From Alphaproteobacteria bacterium (GTDB lineage: Bacteria; Pseudomonadota; Alphaproteobacteria; Sphingomonadales; Kordiimonadaceae): DNA of 45,487 nt. Where the stretch lies: positions 1 through 45,487 of the forward strand of contig JABXIV010000058.1 of NCBI GenBank assembly GCA_013372925.1. The letters are read 5' to 3'. The position numbers were made by a program, and so were the translations under genes. Each line of letters begins with the position of its first letter. The first letter of the stretch is position 1. Shown in pieces: positions 23,209 through 31,339 of this stretch. Under the pieces are notes generated by a model. The model was not told where the DNA came from, ran no database searches, and worked only from the letters and a program-made list of their open reading frames with translations.

Positions 23209-23224
23209 CGCTGGCTTGATGATC

Positions 23225-23268
23225 AATGGGCTTGCCTTCAAGAGATGGAGGCAAGCCCATTATTCTTT
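23225..23268. terminator. Bidirectional terminator between gapR and flagellin-like gene
   Basis: AATGGGCTTGCCT-N11-AGGCAAGCCCATT, 13-bp perfect stem, then ATTCTTT. Confidence 0.85.
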
Positions 23269-23286
23269 ATAGGTTGAAAGCAGTGT

Positions 23287-24363
23287 TTAGCTTGCTTCGT
23301 CTGTGTTTGTAGCCATCAACCGTAGAATTTCAGCTTTGCCGCTTTCAATTTTGAAGCCTTTATTCATGTGCGCCTGCGTGGCGGTGAGGGCATGAAGGGT
23401 TTCAGCTTCACCTGCATTTGAGCTTGGCATGAAGGATAGCAAAGCTACTCGTTCCATGATTGAGTTCACAAGAGCTTCCATATTTGCAATATCGACATTG
23501 TGCTGCTGGAAGCTAGTGCGAGCCTCTTCTATCGCGTTTTTGGCAACTTCCACCGCTGCGCATACACCCTCATAGTCAGGCTGATCTGCAACGAGACATG
23601 CCTTGAGAGGAGACAGAGCACCAGCCCTTGTGCCTTGCAGGCTTACCGCCTCGATTTCCACATCATTGCCGGCAAGGATAGTCATCGTATTGCTATCAAA
23701 TTTCACAGGGAAATCAGGTAGTTCCTGATAGTTGGCCTTGAGTGCAGCTCCCAAAACAGCACAGATGGCTTTTGTTGTCCGTGTCCAGGCCATGTTTTGG
23801 GAAATAATCCTGCGGTCCTCACCCTTGCGGCGCATGGCAACGCGGATATATTTAATCGAAGAAATGGCCGTGCTTGGGTTATGGCCAGCCTCCACTGTGA
23901 TAGACACATTCCCTGTGTCTTTGTCTTTGCTGATTATGAAGGGACCGCTTTCCAAGCCTAAATTATGGCTGTAGGCAGTTTGCACAGACATAACTTTGGA
24001 AGAGCCCACCATGTCTGACTCTGTCAGAAACTGGAGGTCGTTGGTGCCTTTCAGCATGTTCACATCCTGAAACGACGATTCTTTTAGAATAGCATTCAGG
24101 CGTGCTACATAGCCGATGCCCAGTGGTGTGTTGGAGCCTTCTTTCTCCCGAGCAAGTTCTTGCTCTTTAATGTCTTCCAGTTGTTCTTCGACACAATCCA
24201 GTGCGCTCAGTGCGATGTTAATGGTGGCAGTTGCGCGCCAGAGATCATCGCTGATTTCCCGAAGATGGACGAGTTTCTCTGGGAAGCCTTTCAACTTCCC
24301 TGATTTTCTATCCGCAAGCTGGATCAAGTTAAAGTCATTGCTAACATTCAAGTTCGAAGTCAT
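23287..24363 (-). CDS. Divergent flagellin-like protein, coupled to flaF
   Basis: 358 aa; by-eye colinearity with the adjacent flagellin, including the middle domain (SSIKYIRVAMRR... vs KSITFTLQDTV...) and C-terminal helices; overlaps flaF by 23 bp. Confidence 0.55.
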   Translation of the reverse strand: MTSNLNVSNDFNLIQLADRKSGKLKGFPEKLVHLREISDDLWRATATINIALSALDCVEEQLEDIKEQELAREKEGSNTPLGIGYVARLNAILKESSFQDVNMLKGTNDLQFLTESDMVGSSKVMSVQTAYSHNLGLESGPFIISKDKDTGNVSITVEAGHNPSTAISSIKYIRVAMRRKGEDRRIISQNMAWTRTTKAICAVLGAALKANYQELPDFPVKFDSNTMTILAGNDVEIEAVSLQGTRAGALSPLKACLVADQPDYEGVCAAVEVAKNAIEEARTSFQQHNVDIANMEALVNSIMERVALLSFMPSSNAGEAETLHALTATQAHMNKGFKIESGKAEILRLMATNTDEAS

Positions 24364-24808
24364 CTTCTTTCTCCGTTAAGGAAGAGGGGTGAAGATTGCG
24401 ATTAGCAATATTCTGTTGCCCTGGAGCTTGTGCTGTGCCTTCAGGTCTCGCCTGCAATCCGGCGATGATATCCTTGTTCAGCAACACCAATGGTTCCACA
24501 TTCTTTCGGGTTTGAATCACCGTCTGCGTATGGCGATTTACCCAAATGGCCAGTGAAATCAGTCTAGCCCGTAGTTCAACCGGATAGGGGTGGTCATCTT
24601 CCGCTAGGGCGACCAGAAACTCGTTCCATATCTTCTGGTTTTTGGAAACTGCCTGATAGAATTGTTGAATATCGACATCCCCTTGAGATGTTCTTTCCAT
24701 CTCGGCGTTGATCCGGGTCAGAGCTTCCACTTCTTGAGAGCGACCGTCTTTCAGCGTCAGGCTGGCATTCTGATATGAACTAATTCCCCGTGCTAACATT
24801 GTCCTCAT
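24341..24808 (-). CDS. flaF: Flagellar biosynthesis regulator FlaF
   Basis: YQAVSKNQKIWNEFLVALAEDDHPYPVELRARLISLAIWVNRHT matches FlaF pattern; immediately downstream of flagellin. Confidence 0.85.
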   Translation of the reverse strand: MRTMLARGISSYQNASLTLKDGRSQEVEALTRINAEMERTSQGDVDIQQFYQAVSKNQKIWNEFLVALAEDDHPYPVELRARLISLAIWVNRHTQTVIQTRKNVEPLVLLNKDIIAGLQARPEGTAQAPGQQNIANRNLHPSSLTEKEDDFELEC

Positions 24809-24856
24809 TCCTCATTAACTAATAATATGTGAGTTGATGTGGTAGAAACGCTGGCC

Positions 24857-26068
24857 CTACTGGAAGAGGGACAACACCGAACGAGTTTGTTCGTTAGCAA
24901 TACCAAGAGCCTGATAACCAAGCTGTTGTTTTGCTTGGGCTTGGTTCAGGTTTACAGCTTCTTTGGTCAGATCAGCGTCAACTAGGGCGCTCAACCCGGT
25001 TTCAAGGCTATCTAGTAGGCCGGAGATGAAGTTGTCTTGCAAATCAAGGCGCCGCTGTTGCGAACCCAAAACGGCGTTTGTGTCGCTCACAATATCTGCT
25101 AGGCCATCGATTTCGCCCAGCGCAGCTACGGCACCTGGTGTGGTCGTAACATCAATTGCTGCCAACGGCATCAAGTCGCCACCGCTCAGCTCGACATCCG
25201 CGCCTTCAAAGGTGATTTTGTCAGTGCTGTCGCCAAATGTCAGCGTGGTGCCATTGGCGCTATCTGCAGCGACAGTCACCGTTGCAAAGTTTGCAGTCGG
25301 CGTCAGGGCCCGAATTTCAGTCTGAAGCTTTGTAGCCACTGCAGTCAGGTCGTCTTCTGCACTTACATCGATTGTAACTTCATGTGATGCTGGCGCAACG
25401 GTATCCTGAAGAGTGAATGTGATGGACTTCAAATCACCCGGCTTCACCTTGCTACCGTCAGTTGGCGTTACTTCGCCAGTGTAGGCTTGGTCCAAAGTGA
25501 TTACCGGGTCAGTCGCACCTGCGGCAAACGTATTGCTTGCGATGCCGTTGCCACGTGTCGTTGTGGTGCGAATATCATGCGTATCGAAATTCAGCGAATC
25601 CGGCACGCGCTCGCCATCCACGGTCTTGAAGCCGATCATCACATTGAATGGTTTGCCGCTGCCATTCAACAAGTTCAGGCCGTTGAATTCTGCAGCTTGA
25701 ACCTGGTTTTCAATTTGCGCGACAAGCTGGTCGATGTCAGCCTGGATTGCGTTGCGGTCAACGTTTTCGCCTTGTGCCTGCACAATCTTGGCTTTGATCT
25801 CAGACATCAGGCCATCGATTGTTTCAACGGCCGCAACGCCTGTTCCCAGTGAAGATTGGGCAAGGGCAAGCGTGTCGCTTACCACATTGTAGGTCTTGAT
25901 ATCAGAACGCAGGCCTTGCGCGATGGCATAGGTTGACGCGTTGTCTTTTGATGAACGAACCTTCAGGCCCGTTGAGATACGTTCCTGCGTTTCCTGAAGA
26001 AACGCATCGTTCTTGTTAAGAATCGTAAGCGCTTTGAGCGCTGACACATTTGTATTGATGGAGGCCAT
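24857..26068 (-). CDS. Flagellin
   Basis: 403 aa; MASINTNVSALKALTILNKN...QERISTGLKVRSSKDNASTYAIAQGLRSD and C-terminal SLETGLSALVDADLTKEAVNLNQAQAKQQLGYQALGIAN. Confidence 0.97.
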   Translation of the reverse strand: MASINTNVSALKALTILNKNDAFLQETQERISTGLKVRSSKDNASTYAIAQGLRSDIKTYNVVSDTLALAQSSLGTGVAAVETIDGLMSEIKAKIVQAQGENVDRNAIQADIDQLVAQIENQVQAAEFNGLNLLNGSGKPFNVMIGFKTVDGERVPDSLNFDTHDIRTTTTRGNGIASNTFAAGATDPVITLDQAYTGEVTPTDGSKVKPGDLKSITFTLQDTVAPASHEVTIDVSAEDDLTAVATKLQTEIRALTPTANFATVTVAADSANGTTLTFGDSTDKITFEGADVELSGGDLMPLAAIDVTTTPGAVAALGEIDGLADIVSDTNAVLGSQQRRLDLQDNFISGLLDSLETGLSALVDADLTKEAVNLNQAQAKQQLGYQALGIANEQTRSVLSLFQ

Positions 26069-26095
26069 GGCCTTTCTCCTTTCCTAAAGAGATCG

Positions 26096-26114
26096 CCACG
26101 ACGCTTTCTGCGGA
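26096..26114 (-). promoter_or_regulatory. Conserved flagellin leader motif, copy 1
   Basis: minus strand TCCGCAGAAAGCGTCGTGG, 27 nt upstream of the flagellin ATG; 16/19 identical to copy 2. Confidence 0.55.
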
Positions 26115-26357
26115 ATCTGTCTATGACCAGCGAGTACAATAATTCTTTGACCGCATAGATACGCCTTTGCGTAGGTCACGACAGCGTGTGACCAGAAACT
26201 AGTCAGAAACTTCCAATTGATTGTGGGATTGGTTTGATCCGATTTGCGGATATATTTATTAACTATCTAAAATAATTGAATAAAATTTATCGAAAATAGG
26301 TTGTGAGCACCTTTGCGGTGTGGGGCGACGGAAAAAACTTCATGCCTCTTAGCGAGA

Positions 26358-26385
26358 ATCCCACCCGGCGTGAACCGGGTGGGAT
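26358..26385 (-). terminator. Perfect 11-bp hairpin downstream of second flagellin
   Basis: ATCCCACCCGG-cgtgaa-CCGGGTGGGAT; no clear T-run. Confidence 0.6.
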
Positions 26386-26431
26386 GATAGCAGTAGCGTG
26401 CCTGCTATTGTTTCTAGTGCCGTTTTTAAAC

Positions 26432-27595
26432 TTAACGGAACAGTGACAGGATAGAGCTTGTGTTCTGGTTCGCGATAGACATCGCCTGAACGCCAAGCTG
26501 TTGTTTCGCTTGATACTGGCTCAGTTTCACTGATTCTTCGGTCATATCCGCATCAACGAGTGAGCTGAGGCCCTGCTTCAGGCTGTCAACAAGGCTGTTC
26601 ATGAAGTCAGCTTGCAGGTCCATCCGCTTTTGGGCGGAACCCAGTGATGCATCGGCCGACTTAATGGTTGTGATCACCGAGTCAATGGATGTCAGGGCAG
26701 AAGCTGCACCAGCCTGCGTCGAAACATCAATTGCAGCCAGGTCGGCCAGGCCGCCACCTGTTGCAGCTGCAGCTACACCGCGGAAGTTAACTGTACCTGC
26801 ATCGGCATCGCCGAATGTAAGTTGGCCTTCACCTGTTGCAGAAACCGTAGAGTTAGCATACACGCCGCCCAGCCCCTGAAGATCGGTTTGTAGTGCGGTT
26901 GCAACAGCTGCAAGGTTGGCCGCGCCACTAATGTCAACCGTGCGAGTCGTTTCGTTACCTGACGCAACATCAACAACGGTATAAGACATGCTGTCAAACT
27001 GCCCTGTAGCATAGTCCTTAGACAGCATTACATTGGCGGAATCTTGGGTGTCTGGGCCGAACTGGTCAAATGCAATGCTGTTGTTTAGGCCTGCGCGTGC
27101 GCTCAGGTCGGTGTAAGCAACAGAAATATTCTGTGCACTGCCATCGTCCTTGAAGCCGGACATTACGTTGAAGTTACCAGATCCGGAACCATCGATGAGG
27201 TTTGCGCCGTTAAATTCAGCGGCAGAAACCTGGCTATCGATTTGTGCAACAAGCTGGTTGATGTCATCCTGAATTACATTCCGGTCAACGTTGTCGCCTT
27301 GTGCGGAAACGATTTTCGCCCGAATTTCATCAGCCAGTGATGACATTGTCTTTGTTGCAGCAGTCGCAACAGACAGGGTGGCCTGGCCAAGAGCCAGCGA
27401 GTCTTTGATCGCGCCAAAAGCCTTCATATCAGAGCGAATGCCCTGCGCAATGGAGAAAGTAGAAGCGTTATCTTTAGAAGATGAAACCTTCAAACCTGTG
27501 GAAATACGCTGTTGCGTTTCCATCATGGATTTGTTGGTGTCGCGAAGGATGGAAAGTGCGTTGATTGCACTAGCATTAGTATTGATAGAAGTCAT
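26432..27595 (-). CDS. Flagellin
   Basis: 387 aa; MTSINTNASAINALSILRDTNKSMMETQQRISTGLKVSSSKDNAST..., C-terminal SLSSLVDADMTEESVKLSQYQAKQQLGVQAMSIANQ. Confidence 0.97.
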   Translation of the reverse strand: MTSINTNASAINALSILRDTNKSMMETQQRISTGLKVSSSKDNASTFSIAQGIRSDMKAFGAIKDSLALGQATLSVATAATKTMSSLADEIRAKIVSAQGDNVDRNVIQDDINQLVAQIDSQVSAAEFNGANLIDGSGSGNFNVMSGFKDDGSAQNISVAYTDLSARAGLNNSIAFDQFGPDTQDSANVMLSKDYATGQFDSMSYTVVDVASGNETTRTVDISGAANLAAVATALQTDLQGLGGVYANSTVSATGEGQLTFGDADAGTVNFRGVAAAATGGGLADLAAIDVSTQAGAASALTSIDSVITTIKSADASLGSAQKRMDLQADFMNSLVDSLKQGLSSLVDADMTEESVKLSQYQAKQQLGVQAMSIANQNTSSILSLFR

Positions 27596-27626
27596 GGTTC
27601 TCTCCTTGAGATTTTATAAGGATTAA

Positions 27627-27645
27627 CCACAACGCTTTATGCGAA
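27627..27645 (-). promoter_or_regulatory. Conserved flagellin leader motif, copy 2
   Basis: minus strand TTCGCATAAAGCGTTGTGG, 31 nt upstream of the flagellin ATG. Confidence 0.55.
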
Positions 27646-27925
27646 GCATACCGGCCCATTGCTCTTTCTGATCAATCACCGGATAGGTGACACATTGATT
27701 AGCCTGTTTAATGATCCGTGTGTTGCATCACATTGATGCGAAAAGCGGATCAAATGAAATAAATATATAAATATCAAATAGTTAAGGTTTATTTTTCTGG
27801 GAAAATTAATACTGTTTGGGGCTTGGGTGTGCCTCAAGACACGGCAAAACGCTGTGTTTCATGCATCACTAGAGTGTTGGGGCAGCAAGCAGTTGTGTGT
27901 AGATTGGCCTTGGGGGGGAGAAGTT

Positions 27926-28831
27926 TTAGCCGTTGGCGATCTTGAGCTGCATTTCGCTGCTTTTCGAGAAAACAGTTACTTCGTGATCAAGCGCTTTCAG
28001 TGCGGGGGAGAAGGCCCTGCCGCGTGCAGTGATGAAGCTCAGTTCGTACGGTGGTAGGCTTGCTGCAAAATCCCAACTGACCTTAAGGTCCAGCTTTTTG
28101 GCAAGCGCTTGGGGTACAAGGCCGCAGCCAAAGCCAGAAGACACCAGATCAACCAACCATTCCATGCGCTGGCACTTCCTAATTGATTTCGGCTGGACTT
28201 CAAACTGTGAAAGTGCCTGTTCCAGCAATAGGCTGTCGATGGCGTTTTCGTTCACCATCAAGGGCAATTTCTCAAGCTTCTTCGGGAAGGCTAGTGTTTC
28301 TTCTGCGCCCAGAACTTGAGGAACCGCAATAACGTATGATTCCCTGAGGATGGATTTGCTTTTGAAATTGTCAGCGATGGTCATGGGGCTTGCAAGAAAT
28401 ACTGCGTCTACTTCCGCTTCCTGCAGAGCGGTGTGTAGCTCCGGGCCGGAGGCGTGGACAAATTCAAGCTCTGCCGAGGGCAGCGTTGTACTGAACTTTT
28501 GAAGCAGCGGATGAAGTAGCGAGAACACAACATTGTCGTCAATGCCGATCCTTAAGTGGCCACCTTCTGTTCGAAGGAGGATATCGGCCTGGTTCTGAAT
28601 GTGTTCATATTGCGAGCGCAGCGCATATAAGGCGGGCTCCATGGAGCGCCCGAATGATGATGGCCTGACCTTGCGGCCTTCGCGTGAGAACAGTTGTCCG
28701 CCAAGAGTAGTTTCCAAGCGTGCGATCGCTCTGCTGACAGTTGATTGGGCAATTTTGAATTCAAATGCTGTTTGGCGAAAACAAAGGCATTCATTCAAGG
28801 CGACATAATACTGTAGGTCACGCAACTGCAT
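27926..28831 (-). CDS. LysR family transcriptional regulator
   Basis: N-terminal HTH MQLRDLQYYVALNECLCFRQTAFEFKIAQSTVSRAIARLETTLGGQLFSREGRKV; substrate-binding domain follows. Confidence 0.95.
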   Translation of the reverse strand: MQLRDLQYYVALNECLCFRQTAFEFKIAQSTVSRAIARLETTLGGQLFSREGRKVRPSSFGRSMEPALYALRSQYEHIQNQADILLRTEGGHLRIGIDDNVVFSLLHPLLQKFSTTLPSAELEFVHASGPELHTALQEAEVDAVFLASPMTIADNFKSKSILRESYVIAVPQVLGAEETLAFPKKLEKLPLMVNENAIDSLLLEQALSQFEVQPKSIRKCQRMEWLVDLVSSGFGCGLVPQALAKKLDLKVSWDFAASLPPYELSFITARGRAFSPALKALDHEVTVFSKSSEMQLKIANG

Positions 28832-29121
28832 ACACGATCACACATTGTTCATTATCAAGTTACCAATAAGCTGGTGTAACTGTGTCAGTATCGCCAACCC
28901 CCTGCTTTGTTCATAACTTCCGAAAATATTTTATTTCAATAAAACCTAGGATTAGGTTCTATTGATAAGGTTGTATTTAGTACTGAAAACTAGGGAACTA
29001 GAGTTTATTTTGTGCCAAATTGATGCAGAAATCGGTTCTCAAACTTAAAAAAAAGGATCAGTCCGAGCCGATTTAAAGGAGGAATTTTGCATTTTTCTGG
29101 TTGAATGAAGGTGTATTGAAA

Positions 29122-29940
29122 TTAATTCGAACTGGATATGCCTACTAATTCAGCGTCTCTGGCGAGTATTTTTTGCCACACTTTCTCAAGGCCTTCGATT
29201 TCGATGCCGAATGTTTTTTCGAGTGTGGCGCGATAGTCATCCAGATTTTCGATTATGCGTTTGTAGCTACCCTCGGGCTGGATCGTTTTCAGCACTCGGC
29301 CACGCATCACTTCCAACCGGTCAGGGAAATGGCGTTGGCAAACAGCGTTCTGGACAAATGACGAATCCGGCGAGCTCTGCAAATAGGTACATTTTTCTGC
29401 CAGCAATCGGTTGTCGGCCGTGTCTTCTGTGAAATCAAAGGATGAGGCTGCGCCCTCAGGGTGGTTATGCAGCCTCCACCACATGTCATCGAGTTTTTCC
29501 AACCTGAACTGCCAATGCCGCTGCTTGAAGGAGCCTTCCTTGAGGATGGCAGGTTCCACCATCCCGTCACCAAACCCCACGTCAGCGAGATAGCGCTCGC
29601 CGTTCAGGTCCACCAGAAGGGCCAGGTGGTTGCCTGTCATCGTGTCTCCTAGTTGTTCGCGTCTTACGCCTGCCGCAACACGCTGAACCGAAAAGCCGAT
29701 TTCGCTGAGCGCCCATCCCATCAAGCCGTTCATTTCATAGCACCAGCCACCGCGACGCTTGCCCACAATTTTTTCATATGCGTCAGCAACGGAAAGGCCC
29801 GTGGGTGTGCCGGTTTGTACATCCAGGTTTTCATAGGGAATATTGTCGCTGTGCAAGTGGTGGATAAGCCGGAACGTATCCAGGTCAACGCGGGGTGTGG
29901 CGTTGAAGCCAATATGTTTTAGGTAGGCGTCTACTTGCAT
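29122..29940 (-). CDS. Arylamine N-acetyltransferase
   Basis: ORF 29122..29985; start 29940 (MQVDAYLKHIGF) preferred; KIVGKRRGGWCYEMNGLMGWAL catalytic Cys motif, NHLALLVDL, YLADVGFGDGMVEP. Confidence 0.92.
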   Translation of the reverse strand: MQVDAYLKHIGFNATPRVDLDTFRLIHHLHSDNIPYENLDVQTGTPTGLSVADAYEKIVGKRRGGWCYEMNGLMGWALSEIGFSVQRVAAGVRREQLGDTMTGNHLALLVDLNGERYLADVGFGDGMVEPAILKEGSFKQRHWQFRLEKLDDMWWRLHNHPEGAASSFDFTEDTADNRLLAEKCTYLQSSPDSSFVQNAVCQRHFPDRLEVMRGRVLKTIQPEGSYKRIIENLDDYRATLEKTFGIEIEGLEKVWQKILARDAELVGISSSN

Positions 29941-29971
29941 TCCATTGTTCCCTTTTGGGTGGCCGGGCTGT

Positions 29972-31159
29972 TTATCCTGCCTCAATCAGGAAACCACTTT
30001 TCAATAATCGGTTCACCAGTGCGATACGCACACTGTCATCTATTGCGCCGGGGATGTCGGCAATGGTGAACTCATTTGTATCCAGAATGAAACGCATGGC
30101 CTCTTCCGCGCCCAAATGTATCAGGAACTGTTCGCCGGGTTGGCGGAACTCCAGTGTGTGCGGCAATGCATTGAGTTGGCCATAAGCCAGCGGGTGGTGT
30201 CTTACTCTGCTATCCAACGCGACAGCGGGTATCCTGTCGGGCCGAGGTAGCTTTGGCAGGCCTTCAAGCATCCTGGCTTTCCGGAGCACGATAGCATCAC
30301 GAACAAAGCTGTTTGATTGGGCGTTTTCCTGAAGTTGCGCGATACCGTCTCTTATCTGGCGCAAAACAATATCGGCCCCTTTGTTTTGCGTCATGCAGTC
30401 GGCCCGTGTGCCCAGGTCCGCCCGAAGAGGTTGATTAAGTTCTGATAGCTGGTCCAGCGCCGCGGCGATCATTTCCCGAACTGTTACTGGCGTGAAGCCA
30501 ATGGCCAGATGGATGGACTCGCTGGTTGATTTCACCGTGTGTGGCGTGCCGCGCGGTACATACAGAAGATCACCGGGGCCGATATCAATCGTGCTGTAGC
30601 GTTCAAACGACGGGACACCTTCACCGACACTTTTCCAGATATTTGGCTGTGTCGGTGGTTCGTCAGAAATGAACCATTTTTTGCTACCCACCAGTTGCAG
30701 CACAATCACATCGATTTCGTCGTGATGGATGGGGGCCTCGGCTTCGCTATCACTCCAGAAGACAACCACGCCGGCAGGGTTGCCAATGATGACCTCAATC
30801 GCCCTCGTCAACTCAGTCAGGCGAGGCGATAGGTTCAGAACATCAGGGATGCGAACTGTGTAACCACCTTTGTGATAGCCTTTGATCAATTGCAGGAATG
30901 CGTCAGCGTCCTGCACAGGTTTTGCGCTTGGAGGCGGGCCTTTTGGTGTACGGTTGTGGGATGTCAGGAACGGGGCATAGGTTTCATATGCGCTCAGAAT
31001 CGTATCTTTGGGGTCTTCACCAAGCATCAGGTGTCGGTCTGCGGTGTTCTTACCAATGACTGTGAGCGGCTTTTTGCCAACATATTCGTCGAAAAACTGG
31101 TCATAGCCACACGGGGCTAGAATGTCGGACAGTATTTTTTGTGCTTCCTCTAGCCGCAT
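29972..31159 (-). CDS. JmjC/cupin-like (RoxA-type) putative oxygenase
   Basis: 395 aa; IHHDEIDVIVLQLVGSKKWFISD ... GDLLYVPRGTPHTVKS (HxD...H), C-terminal winged-helix-like segment. Confidence 0.75.
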   Translation of the reverse strand: MRLEEAQKILSDILAPCGYDQFFDEYVGKKPLTVIGKNTADRHLMLGEDPKDTILSAYETYAPFLTSHNRTPKGPPPSAKPVQDADAFLQLIKGYHKGGYTVRIPDVLNLSPRLTELTRAIEVIIGNPAGVVVFWSDSEAEAPIHHDEIDVIVLQLVGSKKWFISDEPPTQPNIWKSVGEGVPSFERYSTIDIGPGDLLYVPRGTPHTVKSTSESIHLAIGFTPVTVREMIAAALDQLSELNQPLRADLGTRADCMTQNKGADIVLRQIRDGIAQLQENAQSNSFVRDAIVLRKARMLEGLPKLPRPDRIPAVALDSRVRHHPLAYGQLNALPHTLEFRQPGEQFLIHLGAEEAMRFILDTNEFTIADIPGAIDDSVRIALVNRLLKSGFLIEAG

Positions 31160-31339
31160 GCCATGTGCCTATTTTCGCAAAGTACCAATATTACGAGAAA
31201 GGAACTTAACTCTCTCTCTTCCAGGCTGAACAATATCTTTCAGTCTCTAAGCTGTCGATTAAACGAAAGTTTTAATTTCGTCAAAGGGCGTAATAGAGCT
31301 TTCTTGCTTTTGTATAGGCCTGTTCCAAGCCAAGAAACC

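Follow-up and report, generated by a model that had tools for sequence, protein, structure and literature searches.

To our knowledge, very few cases have been described of flagellin paralogs that regulate rather than build; FljJ is the best-documented analog. This protein of Caulobacter crescentus is a specialized flagellin paralog that cannot form filaments alone and is bound by FlaF; it also uniquely binds FlbT and so represses translation of the other flagellins until FljJ is exported (PMC7591256). A full flagellin with 49% identity to its paralogs, FljJ is placed near the hook after export (PMC7591256). Flagellin homologs that are secreted as non-structural proteins are also documented: the Vibrio proteins FlaE/FlaF, found in the biofilm matrix (PMC6692518), and Campylobacter FlaC, which carries D0–D1 (PMC5466977). 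In E. coli and Salmonella, FliC residues 1–47 or 26–47 serve as the secretion signal (PMC6337784).

Here we describe a strongly diverged gene encoded directly after flaF in an alphaproteobacterial flagellin cluster (family Kordiimonadaceae). The window, that is, the whole stretch of DNA analyzed, comprises 45,487 nucleotides of contig JABXIV010000058.1 (assembly GCA_013372925.1). The gene product is very probably derived from flagellin and not an ordinary filament subunit.

A coding gene at the end of a flagellin–flaF run

The run consists, in order, of the 387-aa flagellin, the 403-aa flagellin, flaF (155 aa), and the diverged gene, which is last (Table 1). The preliminary description had recognized an ORF of 358 aa in this position, overlapping flaF by 23 bp. 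These coordinates, the minus strand, and the ATG are confirmed: the start codon lies 23 bp inside the 3′ end of flaF, with a GGAG motif 7 nt before it. Codon preference in the frame of the diverged gene is 0.077 bits per codon, within the range of the neighboring genes, and is negative in all other frames, which contain 9–23 stops. Given this ribosome-binding site, the in-frame codon bias, the overlap with flaF, and the hairpin past the stop codon, positions 23287–24363 are a genuine coding gene. A six-frame check found no frameshift concealing the absent N-terminal segment discussed below.

Table 1. Features of the diverged gene and its surroundings (window coordinates)
Feature	Position	Strand	Basis or remark
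Diverged flagellin paralog (very probable), 358 aa	23287..24363	minus	ORF; profile match; AF2/Foldseek
Parts of the 358-aa protein	N-terminal D1 hairpin, residues 33–171; beta-rich middle domain, ~140–245; C-terminal helices		
Second FlaF (flagellin secretion chaperone), 155 aa	24341..24808	minus	PF07309, E 1.5e-25
Canonical flagellin, 403 aa	24857..26068	minus	PF00669 + PF00700
Canonical flagellin, 387 aa	26432..27595	minus	PF00669 + PF00700; tree sister of 403-aa flagellin, 100/99
GGAG ribosome-binding site of diverged gene, inside flaF	24371..24374	minus	sequence
16-pair inverted repeat, probable terminator	23225..23261	.	between diverged gene and convergent gapR
17-nt element CGCANAAAGCGTNGTGG, possible shared leader element, ahead of 403-aa flagellin	26096..26112	minus	sequence
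Same 17-nt element CGCANAAAGCGTNGTGG, ahead of 387-aa flagellin	27627..27643	minus	sequence
Accessory island: diverged flagellin, flaF, two flagellins, LysR regulator, N-acetyltransferase, JmjC/cupin protein	23209..31162	.	boundaries approximate; comparison with nearest relative (G017)

A further inverted repeat, CCCACCCGG..CCGGGTGGG, lies 3′ of the 387-aa flagellin gene (window 26360–26383), which suggests that the 403-aa flagellin, flaF, and the diverged gene form a transcription unit of their own. The FlaF encoded in the window is 27% identical to the main FlaF of the genome, which is encoded on contig C82. Each of the two flagellins in the run has the element CGCANAAAGCGTNGTGG approximately 30 nt upstream of its start codon; the element is a possible leader or promoter control signal, and no exact copy was found upstream of the further flagellins that were fetched. 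Close to the flagellin starts, a search for strict sigma-54 and sigma-28 promoter patterns found none.

Similarity to flagellins

Comparison with flagellin profiles, which had been proposed as a check on the relationship, gives a divided answer. Neither Pfam nor NCBIfam yields a flagellin match for the diverged protein at a threshold as loose as E 1; the protein matches neither PF00669 (Flagellin_N) nor PF00700 (Flagellin_C) at the gathering score, and a PHROGs scan returned no flagellin match. With a custom profile of 66 flagellins, mostly of the same family, the match is significant: residues 33–171 align with the N-terminal D1 hairpin at 28.9 bits (E 7.7e-8 over 2002 sequences), against 16.7 bits for the best of 2000 shuffles and 0.6 for the reversed protein. 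The D1 segment alone scores 22.5–25.3 bits, the best shuffle reaching 12.0 and none of 3000 shuffles scoring as well. At the hairpin loop, the diverged protein reads FQDVNML, against FNGxNLL in flagellins. A phmmer search of the PDB that used no flagellin input placed three Caulobacter flagellins at the top of 177,635 sequences, with E 0.04.

The protein is approximately 20% identical to the operon flagellins, and its remaining parts are less easily placed. In a piecewise test, residues 1–45 scored no better against the profile than shuffles, nor did the middle or the C-terminus. Aligned end to end, residues 126–358 yield z 2.6 against the 387-aa flagellin (7 of 1000 shuffles as good) and z 1.4 against the 403-aa flagellin. 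MAFFT aligns the C-terminal EAETLHALTATQ...ILRLM with the flagellin end ..IANQ..xILSLFR, a region in which the profile score is again no better than that of shuffles. The branch leading to the diverged protein is 6.7 changes per site long, and its own placement in the tree is uninformative. Judged by sequence, only the N-terminal D1 hairpin is secure, and homology in the middle and C-terminal regions is weak.

Predicted structures point weakly to a similarity that extends further. A single-sequence AlphaFold2 model has a pLDDT of 47 overall, but of approximately 80 (confident) for the middle domain at residues 140–245, and orders the protein as a long helix hairpin, a beta-rich middle, and helices. 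Searched with this alignment-free, low-confidence model, Foldseek returned flagellins as its first eight matches, over the whole length (best E 9e-4). With a second model, whose alignment included the two operon flagellins, the first five matches were flagellins; the addition lowered AlphaFold2 confidence to 41, versus 47, and the second model is left out of detailed claims. TM-scores of the Foldseek matches were mostly 0.14–0.19, and both models are of low confidence, so that the rankings are supportive of full-length flagellin similarity, weakly, rather than proof of it. Both Foldseek searches place flagellins first over the full length, but with low-confidence models and low TM-scores. The by-eye alignment with the 403-aa flagellin in the preliminary description, which ran over most of the protein, holds for the D1 hairpin (about residues 33–171), where the profile score exceeds those of all shuffles; sequence statistics do not confirm it for the middle and C-terminus, where structure searches weakly favor a full-length relationship.

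Two readings would deny flagellin descent altogether. In favor of an unrelated protein with a chance coiled-coil similarity are the lack of a curated-family match and the non-significant profile similarity of the middle and C-terminal parts. However, the shuffle tests, the PDB ranking, and the two Foldseek rankings all indicate flagellins, and the gene adjoins flagellins and flaF; we consider chance similarity highly improbable. FlgL has D0/D1 in common with flagellin, and a hook–filament junction protein of the FlgL/FlgK type could be suspected from the FlgL structures that appear low in the Foldseek list, at ranks 12 and 21. Yet flagellins rank above FlgL in every search (PDB phmmer and both Foldseek searches), no FlgL model matches (TIGR02550 and others; NCBIfam at E 1), and the flagellin profile gives the diverged protein 28.9 bits, versus 11.1 for a match on contig C40 that is probably FlgL. 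FlgL identity was rejected on the absent NCBIfam match and the flagellin-profile scores, and we regard a junction protein as highly improbable.

The missing N-terminal segment

Aligned to the operon flagellins, the protein lacks about 10 residues beyond position nine and a further 15 or so (VSSSKDNASTFSIAQ) at the D0–D1 junction. The D0-N/spoke segment (NTN.SA..AL...ISTGL..SSKDNA) gives no profile signal, and in the alignment some 25 residues are absent. The segment ISTGL..SSKDN had been described as missing. This stands insofar as VSSSKDNASTFSIAQ is lacking, although RKSGKLK could be what is left of RISTGLK: the 17-residue stretches NDFNLIQLADRKSGKLK and NDAFLQETQERISTGLK share 7 of 17 identities, a similarity equaled by 53 of 1000 shuffles. 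The loss of most of the FliC-type secretion-signal region suggests that the diverged protein would be poorly exported and would not polymerize.

This loss bears directly on whether the protein could be an exported accessory flagellin, either as a minor or hook-proximal part of the filament or as a secreted protein with no structural role, comparable to Vibrio FlaE/FlaF and Campylobacter FlaC. Secreted, non-assembled flagellin homologs provide precedents (PMC6692518; PMC5466977), and the diverged protein keeps the D1 hairpin, has a confidently folded middle domain, and is encoded beside a chaperone gene. However, Campylobacter FlaC has D0–D1 (PMC5466977), whereas most of D0 and the spoke, including the FliC secretion-signal region, is gone here. 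The missing region argues against a non-structural flagellin exported through the channel, although not decisively. We regard an exported accessory role as somewhat unlikely; among functional alternatives, a secreted non-structural flagellin is the chief one.

The accessory island

Searches for an ortholog of the diverged gene within the family (30 genomes) and the class (385 genomes) yielded ordinary flagellins only; GTDB-species contigs, viral contigs, and plasmids were scanned as well, with no match. The surrounding backbone is conserved in relatives: pyruvate kinase, N-formylglutamate amidohydrolase, DUF1244, gapR, racemase, and a sigma-54 response regulator. In the nearest relative (G017), gapR directly adjoins the homolog of the ORF at 31163, and in the window approximately 8 kb lies between them. 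The absence of the diverged gene from other genomes follows from the absence of this ~8-kb island at the same site in relatives. G+C is mostly 0.46–0.53 over much of the island, versus 0.53–0.57 outside it. In the tree, the two island flagellins group in a separate clade (100/99), which lies outside the one that holds the remaining flagellins of the family. Their own genome aside, their best matches come from other families in the class. The flagellin module was probably acquired horizontally. The diverged gene is known from a single assembly, which is 80.7% complete.

It is somewhat unlikely, in our judgment, that the gene is simply a decaying flagellin copy in the island that lost its function and is drifting, its frame open by chance or inactivated only recently; this is the principal null explanation. 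Such decay would be in keeping with the extreme divergence, the loss of essential segments, the lack of an ortholog, and the limited distribution of the island. But the frame retains 358 open codons with genome-like codon preference, while the other frames have 9–23 stops, and the ribosome-binding site, overlap, and probable terminator are intact. Neutral drift to such divergence should leave stops, and the open frame argues against long drift. A gene in plain decay would illustrate how flagellin families lose members in acquired islands.

Flagellins have multiplied strongly in the genus of the source genome. Flagellin-type sequences occur at ten places in this incomplete genome (contigs C7, C9, C40, C41, C78, C82, and C227), and one relative has 14 matches. 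A second degenerate flagellin, of 276 aa, is encoded on contig C227 (L085:8641-9471), with a canonical flagellin and sugar-nucleotide genes as neighbors. It matches Flagellin_C, falls just under the cut-off for Flagellin_N, and has a scrambled ISTGL..SSKDN segment. This gene is conserved, as judged by a 47% identical copy in the same arrangement in G017 (L217:6671-7555).

The position of flbT

The order flagellin, flaF, flbT is found at L215 and L216, two of the loci in other families that contain the best matches to the island flagellins, and at L089, the locus of the flagellin that matches the diverged gene best across the class. The diverged gene thus occupies the flbT position of near-related clusters outside the family, and the earlier placement of the gene in the regulatory part of a flagellin operon fits this arrangement. 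Only one flbT is present in the assembled genome, on C82 beside the main flaF and a flagellin. The possibility that the diverged gene is itself an FlbT by homology was rejected, as PF07378 is not among its Pfam matches. From the class, 60 flaF regions were fetched, in only part of which the simple gene caller called flaF; they showed no comparable case of a degenerate flagellin after flaF.

Possible function

The preliminary description of a D0-eroded flagellin homolog co-encoded with flaF is upheld by the D1 profile, the PDB and Foldseek matches, and the gene order, but only weakly for the remainder of the protein. Candidate roles named in that description were a minor filament component, a decoy, a co-chaperone, and a sensor. 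A helper, a regulator, or a relic is more likely than a subunit of the filament. Tentatively, the best explanation is a non-structural flagellin paralog in a probably acquired flagellin module. By analogy with FljJ, a mechanism that involves FlaF or FlbT as partner is possible, if doubtful. Under this scheme, the protein would descend from a duplicated flagellin, would be made from the same mRNA as a flagellin and FlaF, and, without most of the export and assembly region (about residues 26–50 of a flagellin), would be poorly exported and non-polymerizing. Its cytoplasmic partner would then probably be the FlaF of the module or the only FlbT of the genome, and the bound protein could compete with or gate the export or synthesis of flagellin, along the lines of FljJ. 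Several points count against this explanation: FljJ is itself an exported, full flagellin to which the diverged protein bears no specific resemblance, profile scores do not support retention of a FlaF-binding C-terminus, no ortholog was found that would show any conserved function, and RKSGKLK may represent a residual export or assembly segment. A bolder version, in which a mobile module carries a flagellin-derived regulator in place of FlbT, a stripped, cytoplasmic, FlaF-bound protein that sets how much module flagellin is made or exported, seems to us decidedly unlikely. Were a regulatory flagellin to lack most of its export and packing segment, the sensing role would be split from the structural one, and the split could be tested in a single small operon.

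Comparison with known systems

The operon flagellins resemble the diverged protein in the D1 hairpin, in length, and in the order of helices, beta-rich middle, and helices; they differ in matching both Flagellin_N and Flagellin_C, neither of which the diverged protein matches. FlbT shares the position directly after flaF in related flagellin–flaF–flbT clusters, but is unrelated in sequence and size (about 130–145 aa). Vibrio FlaE/FlaF and Campylobacter FlaC are, as is proposed for the diverged protein, flagellin homologs not built into the filament; however, they are exported via the flagellar channel, and the N-terminal export and assembly region of the diverged protein is mostly missing. FljJ is a flagellin paralog linked functionally to FlaF/FlbT and not needed as a bulk filament subunit, which is likewise proposed here, but it is full-length and 49% identical to its paralogs, whereas the diverged protein is approximately 20% identical to the operon flagellins, lacks most of D0-N, and bears no specific resemblance to FljJ. 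Specialized flagellin paralogs are already known; this case stands out by the unusual location of the gene and by the unusually large part of the export and packing region that is lost.
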